From contig CAJVYQ010000030.1 in assembly GCA_913009825.1 (NCBI GenBank), forward strand, positions 1 to 59,764: a DNA stretch of 59,764 bases, read 5' to 3'. Positions 4,303 to 56,500 of this stretch are shown in pieces. Source of the DNA: an uncultured Deferribacteres bacterium. Lineage in GTDB: Bacteria > Zhuqueibacterota > JdFR-76 > DREG01. The position numbers and the translations under genes are program-made. Below the pieces are notes generated by a model. It saw nothing but the letters and a program-made list of their open reading frames with translations, did not search any database and was not told where the DNA came from. The first letter of the stretch is position 1. The number at the start of each line of letters is the position of its first letter.

Positions 4303-5652
4303 TTAAAACCGCAGCGTAAAAACAGTTCTGCGTTTGGGTTCGGAATGAACGCTGATAGCTCCGCTGTGAAGCCTCATAATTTGGCGGGACAGGCTTAAAC
4401 CGATGCCGGAACCCTCCTTTTTTGTGGTGAAAAAAGGGATGAAGATTTTTTCTTTTACTTCGTCGATTATGCCTGGACCGTTATCGATAACCTGAATCAT
4501 AACCCGGCCCCTCTCATCCAAATGGGCATCCATCCCGATTATGGCATTGGCTTGGCCCTGCAAAGCCTGCAAAGCATTTTTCAAGAGATTGAGGATCACT
4601 TGCTCAACCAATTCCAAATCGGCGGTAAGTTCCAGATTTTCAGGAAAAATCTGTGTAGAAAATTGAATGTTATTGTCTTTTAATTGACCGGCCATCAATT
4701 GTTCGATCTCCCGAAACATTTTTTTGATGGGAAAAAATTGAAACTTTGGCGTAGGCAGTCTGGTTAAACGCCGGTATGCTTCCACAAAATGAAGCAGCCC
4801 TTCGCTTCGCCTTTGGATGGTTTGCGCCGCTTCCTGAACATCTGAAACAGTATTCCTGTTTATTTGGTACGGATCATCAACTGTGCAATCCTTCAGCAGA
4901 TCATTCATGGTCGCGGCCAGGGAAGAGATCGGCGTAATGGAATTCATAATTTCATGTGTCAAAACACGGATCAATTTTTGCCAGGCTTCGAACTCTTTCT
5001 CTTCCAACTCACTTTGGATATTCTGAATAGAAACAAGTTTAATTGTCCGGTACTGCAATTTAAATTCCCTCGCATGAATAGCCAATTGCAGCAATTCATC
5101 TCCATCCCGAACCTGTACCAATGTTTTTTGCCCGGATTTCAATTTTTCCAGAGCTTTTACCAGTGAATCGCTTCGTGACTCGAGCTTTTTAATATTATGC
5201 AGTTGATTAATTCGTAACTGCTTTTTTGCCGCTGTGTTAAAAAATTCCACAGTCCCATCCAAACGAAAAGCGATCAATCCGATTCCCACATGCTGCACCA
5301 CTGTCTGCAGGTAGCGATAATTTTCCTCTTTTTCTGCTCTTGTCTTGCGAAAATCGTCGATTACTTCTGAAAAAGCCTTACTCAGTTCATCAAACGAATT
5401 CCCCATCCCTTTCAGATTGAAGGATTGGGAAAAATCAGAATACCGTACCGCTTCAAGAAATCGAGTTAAATATTGATTGGTTTTTTCAACATATCTGATA
5501 AGGGCAATCATTTGGTAGAGAATAAAAACAACAACAATAAAAGTAGTGGCCGGCGGTCCCGCTTTAATCGCCAAATAGGAGAAAAGAAAAACAGAACCAA
5601 ACAGGAGAATGATTCTGAAAATTATTTGCAGCCGAAAATGTTTAAATGCCAT
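4303..5652 (-). CDS. NtrY-like sensor histidine kinase
   Basis: This 449-aa kinase is the likely partner of the adjacent sigma-54 activator. Two membrane helices lie near residues 11-30 and 36-54, followed by a HAMP-like linker, a PAS-like region (about 112-210), a HisKA domain with LTHEIMNSITP (His233) and a HATPase domain with NLLKNALQAL (N box), DNGPGI (G1) and GSGIGLSLSRQI (G2). The short periplasmic loop suggests sensing within or at the membrane. The start at 5652 (MAFKHF) was chosen because it overlaps the regulator's stop by 11 nt; a longer reading frame reaches 5727 inside the regulator gene. By position it should control the divergent exporter genes. The stimulus cannot be read from sequence. 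Confidence 0.9.
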   Translation of the reverse strand: MAFKHFRLQIIFRIILLFGSVFLFSYLAIKAGPPATTFIVVVFILYQMIALIRYVEKTNQYLTRFLEAVRYSDFSQSFNLKGMGNSFDELSKAFSEVIDDFRKTRAEKEENYRYLQTVVQHVGIGLIAFRLDGTVEFFNTAAKKQLRINQLHNIKKLESRSDSLVKALEKLKSGQKTLVQVRDGDELLQLAIHAREFKLQYRTIKLVSIQNIQSELEEKEFEAWQKLIRVLTHEIMNSITPISSLAATMNDLLKDCTVDDPYQINRNTVSDVQEAAQTIQRRSEGLLHFVEAYRRLTRLPTPKFQFFPIKKMFREIEQLMAGQLKDNNIQFSTQIFPENLELTADLELVEQVILNLLKNALQALQGQANAIIGMDAHLDERGRVMIQVIDNGPGIIDEVKEKIFIPFFTTKKEGSGIGLSLSRQIMRLHSGAISVHSEPKRRTVFTLRF

Positions 5653-7018
5653 ATTTTTCCATTCTACGATAAAGAGCGGCGCGTGTGAGTCCCAGTTCCC
5701 TTGCGGCGCGGCTGATATTGCCTTCATTCTTGTGTAAAGCTTTTTGGATTACCACCTTTTCCACCGTATTCAGACTGAGATCATCAAAATATAACCCTTC
5801 AGCCCGGGTTTCCCGGCTGGAGAGCAGAAAATCCTGAGGTCGTAAAATTGTTGTATCGCTCATGATAACCGCACATTCGATTGCATGCTGCAATTCTCTC
5901 ACATTACCCGGCCAGCGATATTTTTGCAGTTTGTTCATGGTAGCGGGACCGACCGCTTTTACTTTTTTATGATATTTCTTTACGAACATGGCCAGAAAAC
6001 GATCTATTAGAAGTGGGATATCCTCTTTCCGCTCGTGCAGCGACGGTAACTGAATTTCCACCGTATTGATACGGTAGAGTAGATCCTGACGAAAATGATT
6101 CTCTGATATCATTTCGTAAATAGGCATATTTGTAGCGCAAATGAGATGAATATCAATAGGACGCTGTTTGTGCGAACCAACCCGAATTACTTCCCGGTTC
6201 TGAATCACCTGCAGCAATTTGGCCTGCAGCGACAAGGGTAGATTGCCGATTTCATCCAAAAAGAGCGTACCGCCGGAAGCGACCTCAAACCGGCCGATGC
6301 GATCCTCTTTTGCATCTGTGAATGCGCCCCGTACATGGCCGAAAAGTTCACTTTCGAAGAGGCTCTCCGAAATAGCGCCCATATCCAGACTGATAAAAAC
6401 TTTATCGAAACGCAGGGATTGACGATGGATGGCGCGGGCAACCAATTCTTTGCCGGTGCCATTTTCGCCAAGGATCAACACATTGGCATCCGTGAGAGAT
6501 ACTTTTTGGATCATTTCGTAAACACGCAGCATGGCCGGGCTGTTACCGATAATCTCCTGAAAGTTCTGATCGATATCGGCGTTCAATTGCTGCCGCTGAG
6601 TGCGAAACTGCTCTGCTTTATTACGCGCCTGCCGCAGTTTCAGGGCTGCAGAAATAGTGGCGATTAATTTCTCGTTCTGCCACGGTTTGAGGACAAAATC
6701 CGTAGCGCCCTCTTTGATAGCTCGCACCGCCATTTCCACATCGCCATAAGCCGTAATCAAAATCACGACAACAGACGGATCTATCTGCAGAATTTTATTT
6801 AACCAATAAAATCCTTCCGATCCGCTGGTTGTATCACGGTTAAAATTCATATCTAACAGAACTACATCGTATGTTTCATTCCGAAGAAGGGTCCCTATTT
6901 TTCCCGGATTCTTTTCAGTATGAACCGTGGAAAAATGATTTTTCAATAATAAAGATACCGCGAGCAGAACATCTTCATCGTCATCTACCACCAGTATTTT
7001 ACCATATCTGTTTGCCAT
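5642..7018 (-). CDS. NtrC-family sigma-54-dependent response regulator
   Basis: A 458-aa three-domain activator. The receiver domain has the VDDDED acidic pocket and phospho-acceptor Asp56 (VVLLDMNF) with a later KPW lysine. The AAA+ domain has Walker A (GENGTGKE), a GAFTDA loop (a variant of the sigma-54-contacting GAFTGA), Walker B (GGTLFLDEIGNLP) and an R-finger region. The C-terminal Fis-type helix-turn-helix is NISRAARELGLTRAALYRRM. It leads the regulator-kinase operon and is divergent from the adaptor gene. Candidate binding sites are the TGTYC-N6-GRACA inverted repeats at 7412-7427 and 32448-32463, both upstream of sigma-54-like promoters. Confidence 0.94.
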   Translation of the reverse strand: MANRYGKILVVDDDEDVLLAVSLLLKNHFSTVHTEKNPGKIGTLLRNETYDVVLLDMNFNRDTTSGSEGFYWLNKILQIDPSVVVILITAYGDVEMAVRAIKEGATDFVLKPWQNEKLIATISAALKLRQARNKAEQFRTQRQQLNADIDQNFQEIIGNSPAMLRVYEMIQKVSLTDANVLILGENGTGKELVARAIHRQSLRFDKVFISLDMGAISESLFESELFGHVRGAFTDAKEDRIGRFEVASGGTLFLDEIGNLPLSLQAKLLQVIQNREVIRVGSHKQRPIDIHLICATNMPIYEMISENHFRQDLLYRINTVEIQLPSLHERKEDIPLLIDRFLAMFVKKYHKKVKAVGPATMNKLQKYRWPGNVRELQHAIECAVIMSDTTILRPQDFLLSSRETRAEGLYFDDLSLNTVEKVVIQKALHKNEGNISRAARELGLTRAALYRRMEKYGI

Positions 7019-7110: not shown

Positions 7111-7266
7111 GTAACCGATCACAGGAGTAAAAATTAACCCTCGCCTGAAGCTGAAGCAACAGGCTTAAATATGGAAGCACCCTAAAGGGCGCTTTAACGT
7201 CCTGCCACTTTTGAGCCTGAGCGTTTATCCTCAGGCGGTATTGCGAACGCTCCTGTGATTGGTTAC
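7111..7266. mobile_element. Miniature inverted-repeat element with GTAAC ends (IS66-like signature)
   Basis: Terminal inverted repeats GTAACCGATCACAGGAG / GCTCCTGTGATTGGTTAC bound a 156-bp non-coding element. The flanks are TAAATATT (7103-7110) and TAAATATC (7267-7274), a target duplication matching at 7 of 8 bases. GTAA ends with 8-bp duplications are characteristic of the IS66 family, so this looks like a non-autonomous derivative. It lies in the divergent regulator/adaptor intergenic region. Confidence 0.8.
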
Positions 7267-7411
7267 TAAATATCGTCTGTTTTGTTCTTCAAGCTATCCA
7301 TTGCCAACACACTGTATCGGGGGAATGGGAAAATGTTGGCATGGATCATTTCAGATACGAGTCATTTTAAAATAGGATACATGAAACAAAAAGTAAAGAT
7401 TTTTTATTACC

Positions 7412-7427
7412 TGTCCATTTTCGGACA
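7412..7427. promoter_or_regulatory. Candidate enhancer (activator binding site), TGTCC-N6-GGACA
   Basis: A perfect 5-6-5 inverted repeat. It has the same geometry and near-identical arms as the site at 32448-32463, and both lie upstream of a sigma-54-like promoter. It is the proposed binding site of the NtrC-type regulator encoded at 5642-7018. Confidence 0.55.
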
Positions 7428-7493
7428 CACCTTGTATGCTGGTGAACATTATTAAAAATCACATTGATCAATCGATCCCATATCTTTAATAAA

Positions 7494-7645
7494 ACCTAAA
7501 TCGAGCGATTCTTAGTTTGAAACAACCACCCAAAGAGTTTTGTCATTCTGCCTGCCCGACCGCAGGCGGGAAAGAATCTTGTTAGTTCTGTGCACTAAAC
7601 CAACAAGATTCCTACGGAATGACATGAGAATCGCTCAATTCAGGT
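7494..7645. mobile_element. Miniature element, ACCTAAAT...GAGCGATTCT family, copy 1 (152 bp)
   Basis: Terminal repeats ACCTAAATCGAGCGATTCT and AGAATCGCTCAATTCAGGT. The interior is a TGTCATTC...GAATGACA hairpin unit, different from the interiors of the 119-bp copies at 45307-45425 and 56382-56500. It sits between the candidate enhancer and the sigma-54-like promoter, ending 12 bp before the -24 element. Confidence 0.8.
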
Positions 7646-7655
7646 AAAAACAATA

Positions 7656-7673
7656 TTGGCACGGTTATTGACA
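7656..7673 (+). promoter_or_regulatory. Sigma-54-like promoter for the exporter genes
   Basis: TTGGCACGGTTATTGACA: a -24 TGGCAC box and a -12 TTGA box with exactly 10 nt between GG and GA. The -12 dinucleotide is GA rather than the consensus GC. It lies about 45 bp before the adaptor ATG, and a sigma-54 activator is encoded divergently. Confidence 0.7.
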
Positions 7674-7717: not shown

Positions 7718-8968
7718 ATGGACAAAATGATCAAAAAGAAGAAATGGCCGCCCAGGAAAATTCTTTCCGGTGCCGGCATTTTGTTTATCGTTTTTTTATT
7801 TGTTTACGCACTTTTCTTTCGGGATAACAGATCCAAATTAAATGTTGCCCGGGATAAAATTACCATAGCCACCGTTATCAAAGGGCCGTTTAAAGAATTC
7901 GTTCCGCAGACAGGAACGGTTGTGCCGATTAACACGGTTTATTTAGACGCAGTCGAGGGAGGCAGAGTTGCGGAAAAATATATCGAAGAAGGCGCCATGG
8001 TTAAAAAAGGCGATAAAATTTTGAAATTGGAAAACACATCGCTGCTGATGGACATCATGTACCGGGAAGCGGAACTGTTCCAGCAGATTAACAATTTACG
8101 CACTACGCGCTTGAGTATGGAAAGAAACAGGCTTGAATTGCGGGGGCAAATACTGGAACTGGATTATCAGATCAAAGAGCAGGAAAGGCAGAAAAAACGC
8201 TATGATGATTTGTGGAAAAAAAAGCTGATTTCTCAGGAAGAATATGAAAAGGTGCGCGACAAGTACGATTACACCAGCAGCAAAAAGCAGCTAACCTTAG
8301 AAAGCCAAGAAAAAGATTCCCTGTTCCGGAAATTACAGATTGAACAGTTGGAAAATTCCGTTTCCAGGATGCAGCAGAATCTGGAAATTGTTAAAGGCAA
8401 ACAAGAAAATCTCACTCTGCGCGCGCCCATCTCCGGTCATCTTACTTCCTTAAACGCAGAAATTGGTGAATCAAAAACACGCGGTGAAAGATTGGGACAG
8501 ATCGATATTTTGAATGGTTTTAAAATCCGTGTCGGCGTGGACGAATTTTACATTGCGCGCATCGAAAAGGGCCAGAAAGGCGAGTTTGATTTTTCCGGGA
8601 AGACCTATCATATAATTGTTTATAAAATTTACCCGGAAGTTATCGACGGCAGATTCCAGGTGGATATGCACTTTGAAGGCGAAGAACCGGCCGGTCTGCG
8701 AAGGGGGCAAACCGTGCATGTAAAAATAGATCTGAGCGACTTGAGTGAAGAAATCCTGTTAGCCCGCGGCGGATTTTACCAGAAAACCGGCGGCCAGTGG
8801 GTGTATGTGGTTGATAAATCGGGAAATTTTGCTGTGAAACACCCCATCAAAATCAACCGTCACAATTCCCAGTATTACACTATCTCGGAAGGCCTGCAAG
8901 TTGGCGACAAGGTAATCGTCTCCAGCTATGAAAATTTTGGCGATGTTGATATGTTACTTCTTAAGTGA
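7718..8968 (+). CDS. MacA/HlyD-type periplasmic adaptor subunit
   Basis: A 416-aa membrane-fusion protein with one N-terminal membrane anchor (about residues 17-35). A lipoyl/barrel segment follows (KGPFKEFVPQTGTVVPIN, VEGGRVAEKYIEEGAMVKKGDKIL), then a long coiled-coil hairpin (about 105-220), the returning LTLRAPISGHLTSL strand and a C-terminal membrane-proximal region (GLQVGDKVIVSS). Such adaptors bridge a MacB-type inner-membrane transporter to an outer-membrane channel. A good ribosome site (GACAGGAG) precedes ATG 7718. It is the only adaptor in the island, so all eight permeases would have to share it or act without one. No TolC-like gene is in the window. Confidence 0.9.
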   Translation: MDKMIKKKKWPPRKILSGAGILFIVFLFVYALFFRDNRSKLNVARDKITIATVIKGPFKEFVPQTGTVVPINTVYLDAVEGGRVAEKYIEEGAMVKKGDKILKLENTSLLMDIMYREAELFQQINNLRTTRLSMERNRLELRGQILELDYQIKEQERQKKRYDDLWKKKLISQEEYEKVRDKYDYTSSKKQLTLESQEKDSLFRKLQIEQLENSVSRMQQNLEIVKGKQENLTLRAPISGHLTSLNAEIGESKTRGERLGQIDILNGFKIRVGVDEFYIARIEKGQKGEFDFSGKTYHIIVYKIYPEVIDGRFQVDMHFEGEEPAGLRRGQTVHVKIDLSDLSEEILLARGGFYQKTGGQWVYVVDKSGNFAVKHPIKINRHNSQYYTISEGLQVGDKVIVSSYENFGDVDMLLLK

Positions 8969-9027: not shown

Positions 9028-9717
9028 ATGATCCGCACCGTTAACCTAAAAAAAGTCTACAGGACAGAAGAAGTAGAGACAACCGCTTTAAACGATATAA
9101 ATATGGAAATTCAATCCGGAGAATTTGTCTCTATCATGGGACCGTCAGGATGCGGAAAATCAACATTACTCAATCTGTTAGGCTTGCTGGACAATCCTTC
9201 CGACGGCGAATATTATTTCCTGGATGAAGAAGTTTCCGGATATTCTGAGCGGCAAAGAGCCAATCTGCGCAAGCAAAATATCGGTTTTGTGTTCCAGAGT
9301 TTCAATCTGATCGACGAATTAACCGTTTTTGAAAATGTAGAATTACCTCTTCTTTACTTAGGAGTTCCTTCCTCACAAAGAAAAAAACGGGTCGAGGAAG
9401 TGTTGGAAAATTTTCAGATCATGCATCGCCGCAATCATTTTCCGCAGCAGCTTTCCGGTGGACAGCAGCAGCGTGTGGCGGTTGGCCGGGCCGTTATCGC
9501 CAAACCAAAATTAATTTTGGCGGATGAACCCACCGGAAATCTTGATTCAACACACGGCGATGAAGTGATGAAAATTTTGACCGATCTCAACGAAAACGGC
9601 ACTACCGTCATCATGGTTACCCACTCCCCTTCTTACGCAGAATACGGTAACCGCACGATTCACTTATTCGACGGACATATCGTGACGGAGAATATTAAGG
9701 AAGAATTCCGGGTTTGA
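9028..9717 (+). CDS. MacB/LolD-family ABC transporter ATP-binding protein
   Basis: A 229-aa ATPase with a complete motif set: Walker A GPSGCGKST (residues 38-46), Q-loop FVFQSFNL, signature LSGGQQQR, Walker [14 protein letters not shown] and a switch His in VMVTHSP. It belongs to the o228/LolD group that powers MacB/FtsX-type permeases, which move substrates out of the membrane or periplasm rather than across the inner membrane. It lies 59 nt after the adaptor and 98 nt before permease P1, so adaptor, ATPase and P1 form the core exporter. Ribosome site AAGGAG precedes the ATG. Confidence 0.95.
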   Translation: MIRTVNLKKVYRTEEVETTALNDINMEIQSGEFVSIMGPSGCGKSTLLNLLGLLDNPSDGEYYFLDEEVSGYSERQRANLRKQNIGFVFQSFNLIDELTVFENVELPLLYLGVPSSQRKKRVEEVLENFQIMHRRNHFPQQLSGGQQQRVAVGRAVIAKPKLILADEPTGNLDSTHGDEVMKILTDLNENGTTVIMVTHSPSYAEYGNRTIHLFDGHIVTENIKEEFRV

Positions 9718-9815: not shown

Positions 9816-12197
9816 ATGTTTAGACATTACTTCATCGTTGCAGTTAGAAATCTGTTAAAAAAGAAAAGCTATTCTATGATCAATATTATAGGATTAGCAA
9901 TCGGGATTGCTTGTTGCATACTCATTCTTTTGTATGTCCAGGACGAGCTGTCCTTTGACCAATACCACGAAAACGTTGATCAAATCTATAGGCTGGTTTT
10001 AGAACGACATGCTGCTGAAAAAATGAGTCTTGATATTTCAACACCTCCACCATTGGCATCTGCCCTGACAAATGATTTTCCCCAAATTATCCATACGGTT
10101 CGTTTCCTTAACACAGACAATCCTATTCCTCTGGTGAACCATGGGGACAAACGTTTTTATGAACGTCATTTTTTCTTTGTTGATCCCAACGTGTTTGATG
10201 TATTCACTATTCCTTTTATTCTAGGAGACCCCAATAAATCATTGCAAAAACCCAATTCAATCGTTATCACAGAAGAGACAGCTCGAAAATATTTCGGAGA
10301 TGAGAATCCTTTGGGAAAAACACTCACCTTTAATAATTACCTTGATCTTGAAGTCACTGGTGTTGTGCAGAATTCTCCATCTAATTCTACTCTCAAGTTT
10401 GATTTTTTGGCTTCCTTCTCTACGCTCTACGGTTGGTTAGGTCGGGAGTTTGTCGATAATTGGCAAAACAATATATGCCAGACTTATCTGCTACTCTCAG
10501 ACGACTTCTCCGCGAAAATATTGTCTCGACAATTACCAGATCTAATAAAGAAGTATTTGAGTGAAGCCAATTCCCTCAAACAAATCCATCTTCAACCTTT
10601 AAACCGCATCCATCTTTATTCTTATCAGGATTATCAATTATCCTCTGGCGGAGATATCCGCTATATATATCTGCTCTCTGCTGTAGCACTATTTATTCTA
10701 TTAATTGGCTGTATCAATTTTATGAACCTGGCTACAGCTCGATCCATTGAACGATTCAGAGAGGTAGGAATCAGAAAAGTGGTTGGAGCAACAAAGAATC
10801 AACTCGTCCAACAGTTCCTTGGAGAAACTTTACTTTCAACGATTTTGGCATTACTGATAGCCATCATTATGGTTGAACTATGCCTTCCCTATTTGAATAC
10901 ATTTATTGAAAGTGACATTACCGTTAATTATCGTCAGGATTTGAATTTGTGGATCGGTCTGATTGGAATCGGTCTATTTGTCGGATTTATCTCTGGTGTT
11001 TACCCTGCTTTTTTTCTATCCAGATTTCAACCTATTCATACTCTAAAAAAGCGAGTAAAGATTGGTCATTCAAGAGTATCACTCAGACAAGTATTGATTG
11101 TCGTTCAGTTTACTCTCACTATTACATTGATCATTGGTACAATGGTTGTCAATGATCAAATTTATTTCATGCAGAATAAAAAACTGGGATTTGACAAAGA
11201 TCATGTAATAATAGTTCCTATTCGTGATCAGGCACTTCGTCAGAATCCTGAACCTTTAAAGACTCAGTTACGACAACACCCTTACATTCTACAGGTGGGT
11301 GCATCTGCTCTGTTACCTGGTGGTCCAGTAGGTCGAACTCGTTTCCGTGTTGAAGCGATTTCGGACGAAGGCACTATGTCTATGCTCTGGGTTGACCATG
11401 ATTTTATAAAAACCCTGGGTATAGAATTAGTAGCTGGCAGGGATTTTTCTAATAAATTTCAGACAGATGCGACTGAAGCGGTAATCCTGAACGAGGAGGC
11501 AATTCGACAGCTCGGTTGGACAGATCCTGATGAAGCCATTGGTAAATCATTTGAGTTAGTAGGTAGTAAGAGGGGAAGGATCATTGGGGTGGTGAAGGAT
11601 TTTAACTTTGCTTCTCTCCATCGTAAAATCGAGCCACTCGTATTGCATGAATGGCCCTGGTTAAATTACATTTTAGTACGGGTGGCGGCTACTCATCTTC
11701 CAAACATTTTAGACGATCTTGAGAATACCTGGCGGAAATTCGATCCAAATCATCCATTTACATACACTTTCCTGGATGATAAATTCGATCAATTCTATCA
11801 ATCTGAAAAACAGCTTGGGCAGATTTCTGGTTTCTTCTCATTGCTGGCTATTTCAATCGCTTGTTTAGGCTTATTAGGTCTGGTAGCTTTTGATGTAGAA
11901 CAGCGAACCAAAGAAATTGGAATCCGAAAAGTACTTGGTGCTTCCATAACAAATATTGTAAAACTGTTTACAATTGGGTTCGTAAAATTAGTCTTTTTAG
12001 CTAACTTAATCGCCTGGCCTATCGCATACCTAGTGCTGGAAGACTGGCTGCAAAACTTCGCTTATCGAATAGATATCGGTTTAAGTACGTTTTTACTGTC
12101 GGGTACATTGGTCTTAGTCATTGCTCTGTTAACGATCAGCTACCAATCTATCAAAGCCGCCCTAATGAATCCGATTAAAACGTTGAGGTATGAATAA
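9816..12197 (+). CDS. MacB/FtsX-type ABC transporter permease P1
   Basis: A 793-aa permease with two MacB_PCD/FtsX halves. TM1 (about residues 20-42, IIGLAIGIACCILILLYV) is followed by a large periplasmic domain, three helices (about 285-400), a central helix (VLIVVQFTLTITLIIGTMVV), a second periplasmic domain and three C-terminal helices. The cytoplasmic motif RTKEIGIRKVLGAS that contacts the ATPase is intact, and the protein ends NPIKTLRYE. It follows the ATPase directly and is the best candidate for that ATPase's primary partner. Its codon use is somewhat more AT-rich at the C-terminus than P2-P4, and it lacks their GC-rich tail. The stop codon lies 60 bp before an attC-like site. Confidence 0.94.
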   Translation: MFRHYFIVAVRNLLKKKSYSMINIIGLAIGIACCILILLYVQDELSFDQYHENVDQIYRLVLERHAAEKMSLDISTPPPLASALTNDFPQIIHTVRFLNTDNPIPLVNHGDKRFYERHFFFVDPNVFDVFTIPFILGDPNKSLQKPNSIVITEETARKYFGDENPLGKTLTFNNYLDLEVTGVVQNSPSNSTLKFDFLASFSTLYGWLGREFVDNWQNNICQTYLLLSDDFSAKILSRQLPDLIKKYLSEANSLKQIHLQPLNRIHLYSYQDYQLSSGGDIRYIYLLSAVALFILLIGCINFMNLATARSIERFREVGIRKVVGATKNQLVQQFLGETLLSTILALLIAIIMVELCLPYLNTFIESDITVNYRQDLNLWIGLIGIGLFVGFISGVYPAFFLSRFQPIHTLKKRVKIGHSRVSLRQVLIVVQFTLTITLIIGTMVVNDQIYFMQNKKLGFDKDHVIIVPIRDQALRQNPEPLKTQLRQHPYILQVGASALLPGGPVGRTRFRVEAISDEGTMSMLWVDHDFIKTLGIELVAGRDFSNKFQTDATEAVILNEEAIRQLGWTDPDEAIGKSFELVGSKRGRIIGVVKDFNFASLHRKIEPLVLHEWPWLNYILVRVAATHLPNILDDLENTWRKFDPNHPFTYTFLDDKFDQFYQSEKQLGQISGFFSLLAISIACLGLLGLVAFDVEQRTKEIGIRKVLGASITNIVKLFTIGFVKLVFLANLIAWPIAYLVLEDWLQNFAYRIDIGLSTFLLSGTLVLVIALLTISYQSIKAALMNPIKTLRYE

Positions 12198-21367: not shown

Positions 21368-23760
21368 ATGTTTAAAAACTATTTAATCTCAGCTTTCCGA
21401 ATGTTTAAAAAATATCGTTTACATACCCTCATCAACATTACAGGGTTGGCTCTGGGCCTTGCCTTTTGTATCATCACACTTCTGTTTGTCCGACATGAAT
21501 TCTCTTACGATCGTTTTCATAAAAACATCGATGATATCTATTTGGCCCTGGTTCAAAAAGACAATCAAGGGAAATCGTATGCCTCCAGTCCACCCATTCT
21601 GGCATCGACAATCAAAGAAAATATACCGGAAATAAAATCTGCAGTGCGCGTCTTTGGGTGGGATGTTCAGGAAGGAACACCGGTAAAATATGGCGCCAAA
21701 GTTTTAAATATGTCCGGTTTTTATGTTGATCCGGAGTTTATGCAGATGTTTTCTTTTCCTGAAATTTTGGGAGACTCAAAATCCGCTTTGAATGATCCTG
21801 CCGGATTCATTATTTCAAAAAAAATGGCAGAGAAATATTTTGGCAACGAAGATCCGTTGGGAAAATCCATGGTTGTGAGATTACATGATAAAAGCCAAAA
21901 TTTTACCGTAAAAAGTGTAATCAAATGTCCGGAAAAATCAAGTTTGCGTTTTGATTTCTTAATCTCTTACGCGCGCATGTGGGATATTTCATCCCATTGG
22001 GGATCGAATAATGTGTATACATTTTTTCAATTGGAAAAAGGAGTAGACCCTGCAGTTGTGGAAGCAAAATCACGAGAGTTTTTTAAAGGTTATTTTTCCG
22101 GCTTGGGACAAATGAGAAGAGCGGAAAATTATTCAATGGATCTTTTACCATTACGGAAACTCTATCTCAATGATATTCTTCAAAATGTGTTTACATTAAA
22201 AAGTGATCCCAAATATTCGTACATCCTTTCCGGAATCGCCCTGGCAATTTTAATCATCGCCTGTTTTAACTTTTTGAATTTATCACTTGGACTCGCTTCC
22301 ACTCGTTTAAAAGATGTGGCAATGAGAAAAGTGATTGGCGCAAAACGCGGTGATCTGATCAAACAATACTTGAGTGAATCCATTTTAATAAGTTTGATAG
22401 CATTATTGATCGGTTTCATTTTAGCGAATTTATTCCTGCCAATCTTCAATCGAATTATGAATCGTGATCTCCTATTTAATTTAAAACACTTGCACTGCCA
22501 ATTATTGGCTTTACAATTTTAGTAGGATTTATTTCCGGGCTCTATCCATCACTAATTGTTTCCGGATTTCAACCGGTTGAAATTTTCAGGGGAAGGTTAA
22601 AAATCGGGACTAAAAATGTTTTTAGTAAAAGCCTGATTATTCTACAGATTTCTATATCCATTATTCTGATCATTGCTACTTTGGTTATGGCCGGTCAAAT
22701 GCGGTTTTTACGTAATAAAAACCTGGGTTTTAAAACGGATCAAATTGTAGTGATTGATACCGGAGGATTTGGAGTAGGGTTATCATCAGAACAGAGAAAA
22801 AAACTTTTAGATGTTTACCGTCAAAAATCGTTTTTTTATGATGAACTTGTCAGCGTTACGATGAGTAGCATGTCTTTTGGCAGGGGTAATTATTGGAGCA
22901 CCAGCTTTATGTATGACGAAAAGCCGGTTACATGTCGTGTATATTCTGTTGAATATGATTACCTTAAAACATTAGGGATAAAATTGCTACAAGGCCGGGA
23001 TTTTTCCCGAAATTTTCCCGGTGATGCGGAACATTCAATTTTAGTGAATGAAAAATTAGTCCAGTTCTTTGGCTGGGAAAATCCCATTGGTAAAAGGATT
23101 CCCGTTGAGGGAAACAATCAACTGAACGGAACAATTATCGGAGTAGTAGAAGATTCTCATCTTCGTTCCATGCATTATGCGATAGAACCCGCGGTTTTTC
23201 ATTTAAAGGAAGCAAACGGATATTACCGTTATATTTATGCAAAAATCAGATCTGATAATATTCCCAAAACTCTCGAGTTATTAAAAAATACCTGGTCTGA
23301 AGTCGTTCCGGATCGCCCTTATATTTATTCTTTTTTTGATGAAGATGTTGATAAAGTTTTCCGGGAAGACGAACGCTGGGTAGATGTAACCCAATATGCT
23401 GCTTTATTAGCTATCTTTATCGCCTGTCTGGGGGCGTTTGGTCTAATCTCACTGACCGTTGCAAAGAGAACCAAGGAAGTTGGAATTCGAAAAGTATTGG
23501 GAGCTTCCGTACCTAAAATTGTGATTCTCTTAACAACTGAATTTTCAGTTTTTACCTTAATTGCCAATATCCCGGCATGGCCAATCATTTATTTAATTAT
23601 GAACAAGTGGTTGCAGGCCTTTGTTTACCAGGTTGCACTGACCCCTGTTTATTTTCTAGCGGGCAGTTTGATTACTTTTATCATAGTCATTTCAACAGTT
23701 GGTTTTCAAGTATTGCGAACGGCGCTGGCAAATCCGGTGGAGAGTTTGCGGTATGAATAA
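21368..23760 (+). pseudogene. MacB/FtsX-type permease P5, interrupted by a -1 frameshift
   Basis: The first frame (MFKNYLISAFRMFKKYRLH..., from 21368 behind GGAG) runs to a TAG at 22520-22522. The second frame carries the protein on without loss from 22486 to 23760 (KTLALPIIGFTILVGFISGL ... ANPVESLRYE). Together they give a full-length ~797-residue permease with TM1, PCD1, TM2-4, central helix, PCD2 and three final helices; the contact motif is RTKEVGIRKVLGAS. The switch lies on T-TTA-AAA (22480-22486), where one missing A, or a -1 slip, explains everything. A recent mutation, a sequencing error in an A-run, or real slippage are all possible. Both halves otherwise look under selection. Confidence 0.85.
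22480..22509 (+). other. Slippery heptamer and palindrome at the P5 frameshift
   Basis: T TTA AAA in the zero frame fits the X-XXY-YYZ rule for -1 slippage. Ten nt further on, GCCAATTATTGGC (22497-22509) can form a small hairpin. The post-slip frame is exactly the one that continues the permease. Confidence 0.4.
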
Positions 23761-32447: not shown

Positions 32448-32463
32448 TGTTCGCTAATGAACA
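32448..32463. promoter_or_regulatory. Candidate enhancer (activator binding site), TGTTC-N6-GAACA
   Basis: A perfect 5-6-5 inverted repeat matching the TGTCC-N6-GGACA site at 7412-7427. It ends 77 bp before the -24 GG of the downstream sigma-54-like promoter. Confidence 0.55.
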
Positions 32464-32538: not shown

Positions 32539-32554
32539 TGGCATCGTTTTTGTG
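32539..32554 (+). promoter_or_regulatory. Sigma-54-like promoter for P8 and the second ATPase
   Basis: TGGCATCGTTTTTGTG: -24 TGGCAT and -12 TTGT with 10 nt between GG and GT. The -12 dinucleotide deviates from GC. Together with the upstream inverted repeat it suggests that P8-ATPase is a second unit of the same regulon. Confidence 0.5.
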
Positions 32555-45306: not shown

Positions 45307-45425
45307 ACCTAAATTGAGCGATTGTAGGGCGATTCGCTGAATCGCCAGCCGTATTTATATTAAAAATGAAAATCCGTTTAGTAACAAAAACAAAGTCAAA
45401 AACAAGAGAATCGCTCAATTTAGGT
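45307..45425. mobile_element. Miniature element, ACCTAAAT...GAGCGATT family, copy 2 (119 bp)
   Basis: Terminal repeats ACCTAAATTGAGCGATT and AATCGCTCAATTTAGGT. The interior (GGGCGATTCGCTGAATCGCC hairpin, then AATGAAAATCCGTTTAGTAA) is shared with the inverted 119-bp copy at 56382-56500. Confidence 0.85.
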
Positions 45426-56381: not shown

Positions 56382-56500
56382 ACCTGAATTGAGCGATTCT
56401 CTTATTTTTGAGCTTGCTTTTATTACTAAACGGATTTTCATTTTTAAACTAAATCCGATTGGTGATTCAGCGAATCGCCCTACAATCGCTCAATTATGGT
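56382..56500. mobile_element. Miniature element, ACCTAAAT...GAGCGATT family, copy 3 (119 bp, inverted)
   Basis: The ends are ACCTGAATTGAGCGATTCT and AATCGCTCAATTATGGT; apart from scattered substitutions it is the reverse complement of the copy at 45307-45425 and has the same length. Confidence 0.85.

Follow-up and report, generated by a model that had tools for sequence, protein, structure and literature searches.

Gene content of the locus

The window analysed here, a single stretch of 59,764 nucleotides, carries a two-component gene pair and, on the opposite strand, genes for a HlyD-type exporter (Table 1). The regulator had been put forward as a complete σ54 activator, which is borne out by its Pfam domains and by the AAA+ motifs GENGTGKE (Walker A), GAFTDA, a variant of the GAFTGA-type loop, and GTLFLDE (Walker B). 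This domain set, these motifs and the single rpoN gene of the same genome place the protein among the σ54 enhancer-binding proteins of the NtrC type. Its scores lie below the NCBIfam equivalog cut-offs for the named regulators NtrC, AtoC, ZraR and PrsR, the best being TIGR02915 with 400 versus 503 bits. The start of the adjoining kinase gene probably lies nearer 5652 than 5727, as in relatives.

The exporter genes likewise fall short of the cut-offs for named systems, with P6 at 243 and P8 at 309 bits for ADOP (TIGR03434, cut-off 622 bits), and with 215 of 450 bits for DarC, 284 of 375 for DarD and about 100 of 700 for DarB of the darobactin exporter DarBCD. In another permease, P5 (21362-23760), a frameshift near 22470 apparently leaves two separate frames, of 386 and 359 amino acids. 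No Rfam family has a match across the window.

Table 1. Genes, control elements and mobile elements in the window
Feature	Position	Strand	Basis and details
Sensor histidine kinase	4303-5727	-	HATPase_c match; adjoins regulator
NtrC-type σ54 activator	5642-7018	-	receiver, AAA+, Fis-type HTH; Pfam domains and motifs
Second MITE	7111-7266		ends GTAACC...GGTTAC; 7-8 bp duplication TAAATAT; between regulator gene and enhancer; about 20 genome copies
Predicted enhancer dyad 1, TGTCCATTTTCGGACA	7412-7427	+	exact palindrome; profile; relatives
Predicted enhancer dyad 2, TGTATGCTGGTGAACA	7433-7448	+	21 bp offset from dyad 1; 21-22 bp in relatives
Target-site duplication TAAAA, left copy	7490-7494		copy comparison
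MITE, 150 bp, terminal inverted repeats CCTAAATCGAGCGATTCT / AGAATCGCTCAATTCAGG	7495-7644		multicopy; duplications; IS1380-type ends
Target-site duplication TAAAA, right copy	7645-7649		copy comparison
σ54 -24/-12 promoter of adaptor gene, TGGCACGGTTATTGAC	7657-7672	+	consensus scan and profile
HlyD-type periplasmic adaptor	7718-8968	+	Pfam; NCBIfam RND_mfp above cut-off
ABC ATPase (MacB/LolD/DarD-like)	9028-9717	+	Pfam and NCBIfam
Duplicated permease P1, FtsX/MacB-type	9816-12197	+	Pfam
Control region of P6	24697-24795	+	dyads TGTCCGTAAACGTACA and TGTAATGCTAACGGAT; promoter TGGCATATAATTTGAC; 82 nt; best blind-profile match, 46.2 bits
Duplicated permease P6	24966-27350	+	NCBIfam
Control region of P8	32446-32553	+	dyad TGTTCGCTAATGAACA at 32448-32463; weak second dyad; promoter TGGCATCGTTTTTGTG from 32539; 91 nt; 38.4 bits
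Duplicated permease P8	32653-35022	+	NCBIfam

Control regions and their specificity

The original prediction set one perfect TGTYC-N6-GRACA repeat before each of two σ54-like promoters, at 7656-7673 and 32539-32554. Both repeats are exact and both promoters were found, the adaptor promoter being corrected to 7657-7672, but the repeat at 7412 is not a single site, being followed in tandem by a second dyad. The control region of P6 was absent from that prediction because its right arm, GTACA, escapes the repeat pattern used. The -12 elements carry GA at the adaptor promoter and GT at P8 in place of the consensus GC, as is common to many relatives. The spacings originally given as 79 bp for the adaptor gene, once the inserted element is subtracted, and 77 bp for P8 retain their near identity when the palindrome start and the T of the -24 TGG are taken as end points, with 90 nt for the adaptor gene without the element (245 nt as occupied) and 91 nt for P8.

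The short palindrome was rejected as a marker of the regulon, with 25 genomic matches versus 9 for a reversed control and a mainly intragenic position of those inspected, as was the -24/-12 consensus, whose frequency is at chance level. Within the window, the 10-letter palindrome has three matches versus 0.25 expected, the third of which (21664) is a chance match within the coding frame of P5.

A blind profile built purely from sequence, namely the adaptor control regions of 31 relatives with no window sequence included, behaves differently from these short motifs. Across the 5.1 Mb of the window's own genome, a fragmented genome bin of 123 contigs, strong matches occur at only four places, all of them in the window. 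Two are the control regions of P6 and P8 (scores in Table 1), and the others, 7411-7494 (22.1 bits) and 7621-7672 (19.5 bits), are the two halves of the adaptor control region with the MITE between them. The next-best match, on another contig, reaches 17.1 bits with an E-value of 0.02, profile E-values being rough. When the MITE and one copy of the duplication are omitted in silico, the two halves become one continuous match of 37.5 bits, compared with 37.0 bits for P6 on the same scale. The specific signal is the composite of enhancer and promoter and not its short parts; the short palindrome is scattered over the genome, mostly in genes among the matches inspected, whereas strong matches of the composite are confined to this cluster. 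That each short motif is common by chance might suggest that the palindromes and -24/-12 elements are coincidental, that the genes use other promoters and that the MITE lies in ordinary intergenic DNA, but a composite profile that is cluster-specific and conserved over several phyla makes such a coincidence extremely improbable.

A recent MITE between predicted enhancer and promoter

The element within the adaptor control region had been described as a miniature element of 152 bp at 7494-7645. The element is real, and its bounds are 7495-7644, or 150 bp, as set by a comparison of 30 of its copies, 25 of which have perfect 5-bp flanking duplications. With one TAAAA, the net insertion amounts to 155 bp. 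The right copy of the duplication completes the conserved A-rich box AAAAACAAT just ahead of the -24 element, so that this box is intact. The element has the characteristics of a MITE in being short and non-coding, with terminal inverted repeats, a target duplication and many copies. At least 40 copies with 91-100% identity are present in its own genome and further candidates exist, while its ends, allowing up to two mismatches, occur 567 times (274 + 293) on both strands of the 5.1 Mb and a reversed control gives none. This genome is very heavily loaded with IS1380-type derivatives. One of its contigs (G000:C21) holds a 1.8-kb element whose ends are those of the MITE and, between them, a 467-amino-acid frame matching PF13701 above the cut-off, a transposase family of the IS1380 type. 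A transposase of this type probably mobilised the MITE. Two further elements of 117 bp (45308-45424 and 56383-56499), in mutually opposite orientation, have the ends of the MITE and a different interior. A consensus scan within the MITE found neither a terminator nor a σ70 promoter.

A single base separates the window copy from the consensus of the 30 copies, which marks the insertion as recent; given so recent an event, an intact enhancer and promoter do not demonstrate that the two still function together. The second MITE in the window is older, as its closest copy is 96% identical.

With so many copies of the element in a genome bin, an assembly in which the repeat joins two unrelated pieces would produce a junction of this kind. 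Such an artefact is scarcely credible in view of the matching 5-bp duplications on both sides, the 90-nt spacing and continuous profile match that return when the element is left out, and a regulator-adaptor synteny that is the same as in relatives. The claim that the element landed inside the control region agrees with the duplication, with the restored match and with the empty sites of relatives.

Conservation of the probable regulon in relatives

An orthologue of the regulator with 58-70% identity is present in 17 genomes of the same phylum, several of whose records are labelled candidate division KSB1. The kinase gene adjoins the regulator gene in all 17 loci fetched, and a HlyD gene stands divergent and next to the regulator in 12 of them, usually followed by an ABC ATPase and permeases. 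Most adaptor genes of the relatives are preceded by TGTNCG-N4-CGNACA, a weaker dyad 21-22 bp further on and a -24/-12 element that the first dyad precedes by about 91 nt. In the comparison with orthologous promoters that was proposed at the outset, the palindrome of adaptor promoters free of the element stands a median of 91 nt before the -24; the 73 sites measured in relatives have this median, with 49 at 90-93 nt and a range of 77-112 nt in close relatives. The two relatives of the same family for which a site was scored both show the empty arrangement, with 91-92 nt and no MITE. A similar layout precedes HlyD genes in records labelled Caldithrix/Calditrichaeota, Neomarinimicrobiota, Zixibacteria, Ignavibacteria and Krumholzibacteria, and also Aminicenantes, Acidobacteria, Gemmatimonadetes, Latescibacteria and Bacteroidetes, although not in every record.

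Among 58 other genomes, a profile match is found in 16 of the 17 with a regulator orthologue versus 6 of the 41 without (Fisher 1.4e-8). Some of these genomes contributed to the training of the profile, and of the six several are fragmented or incomplete, which makes the figure indicative; kinship among sites is uncorrected. The gene captured downstream of the relatives' matches is always HlyD, an ABC ATPase or an FtsX/MacB permease, some of the permeases lie on contigs other than that of the regulator, and two partial profile matches are likewise upstream of permeases. Taken together with the specificity of the composite, these data support the original proposal that both repeats act as predicted enhancers of one σ54 regulon, and the dispersed exporter genes very probably form a regulon under the control of an NtrC-type two-component system.

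The sole regulator-bearing genome without a profile match, G034, has at one locus (L104/L137, G034:C136) the regulator orthologue and a palindrome before HlyD with no recognisable -24/-12 element at the usual distance. In another relative (L247, G056:C163), the σ54 promoter of the regulon is apparently tandem-duplicated before a permease, the copies being about 290 bp apart with a run of N between them.

Proposed activation through a longer loop

A σ54 regulator bound at an enhancer must loop to reach the promoter-bound polymerase (PMC7057263). For the locus described here, we infer that the kinase phosphorylates the NtrC-type activator, which would bind both tandem dyads at 7412-7448 and, through DNA looping, contact the σ54 polymerase at 7657-7672 and so activate the HlyD-ABC-permease genes. 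P6 and P8 would be switched on by this activator as well, via their matching sites. The recent MITE insertion, with its duplicated TAAAA, stretched an ancestral distance of 90 nt to 245 nt with enhancer and promoter undamaged, and the adaptor promoter probably still works through the longer loop, possibly with altered strength. As a whole, the explanation of a two-component σ54 exporter regulon with a recent MITE between the adaptor enhancer and its promoter is highly probable.

The main rival concerns the effect of the insertion. A real enhancer and a real promoter might have been uncoupled, leaving the adaptor gene with weak induction or none and the full response to P6 and P8. Close relatives hold the spacing within narrow limits, with 245 nt outside their range, and the added 155 bp corresponds to about 14.8 helical turns, so the two faces may be out of phase. 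Helical phasing of natural spacings is suggested by the closest set (Rayleigh 0.004 at 10.5 bp) and absent from the broad set (0.84), both values being uncorrected for kinship. On the other hand, σ54 enhancers act over long distances, neither the enhancer nor the promoter has decayed, and in distant relatives homologous promoters with tandem dyads and a strong -24/-12 element have spacings of 123-233 nt (e.g., 187 nt at L120, 205 nt at L162 and 233 nt at L136), which suggests a tolerance of loop length. Owing to these natural spacings, continued activation through the longer loop is favoured, and reduced or lost induction is a serious but less likely outcome. The longest of these spacings (L273/L136, G029:C177), upstream of a HlyD gene, is an independent second case of a long loop; its 233-nt spacer is single-copy in the G029 genome, and an element insertion there is unsupported.

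Significance and comparison with known systems

The cluster represents a natural experiment on a bacterial enhancer, with one regulator and three promoters, two at ordinary spacings and one stretched within a control region that is otherwise conserved across many bacterial phyla. As the size of the insertion and the empty state are both known, the stretched promoter offers a test of the limits of enhancer-promoter distance. A widespread exporter system of mostly uncultured phyla would gain a regulator, a predicted site and a target set, by which targets could be predicted across genomes. More speculatively, and as a tentative extension only, a tandem-enhancer exporter regulon of one design might span KSB1, Calditrichota, Marinimicrobia, Zixibacteria, Ignavibacteria, Gemmatimonadota, Acidobacteriota/Aminicenantes and Bacteroidota, with an enhancer-promoter distance that is selected yet can be reset in one transposon step, so that MITEs would act as natural tuners of loop length.

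The components are all of known kinds. No earlier description of this regulon was found in the literature searched, which covered few subscription journals and is weak evidence of absence. In a 2025 survey (PMC12316311), FtsX-like permease genes and ABC ATPase genes (COG1136) of other groups are predicted to have σ54 promoters; in contrast to the system of the window, the text of the survey does not include KSB1 or Calditrichota, and the sections consulted name no regulator or enhancer for these genes. The MITE shares with others of IS1380-type elements the short non-coding form, the inverted repeats of the transposase-encoding element, the small duplication and the high copy number. It is unlike them in that the window copy lies between an enhancer and a σ54 promoter, a position for which the literature searched, again with few subscription journals, yielded no earlier case. 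The exporter has the HlyD adaptor, MacB/DarD-like ATPase and FtsX/MacB permeases of the MacAB, DarBCD and ADOP-type tripartite exporters, and departs from these in scoring under the DarC, DarD, DarB and ADOP cut-offs and in its several paralogous permeases. The regulator resembles the tandem-dyad enhancer-binding proteins NtrC, AtoC and ZraR in its receiver-AAA+-Fis architecture, its partner kinase, the downstream σ54 promoter and the pairing of dyads at an offset of about two helical turns. Unlike these proteins, it falls under every NCBIfam equivalog cut-off among the matches listed and has its own predicted site consensus, TGTNCG-N4-CGNACA, and exporter genes as its predicted targets.
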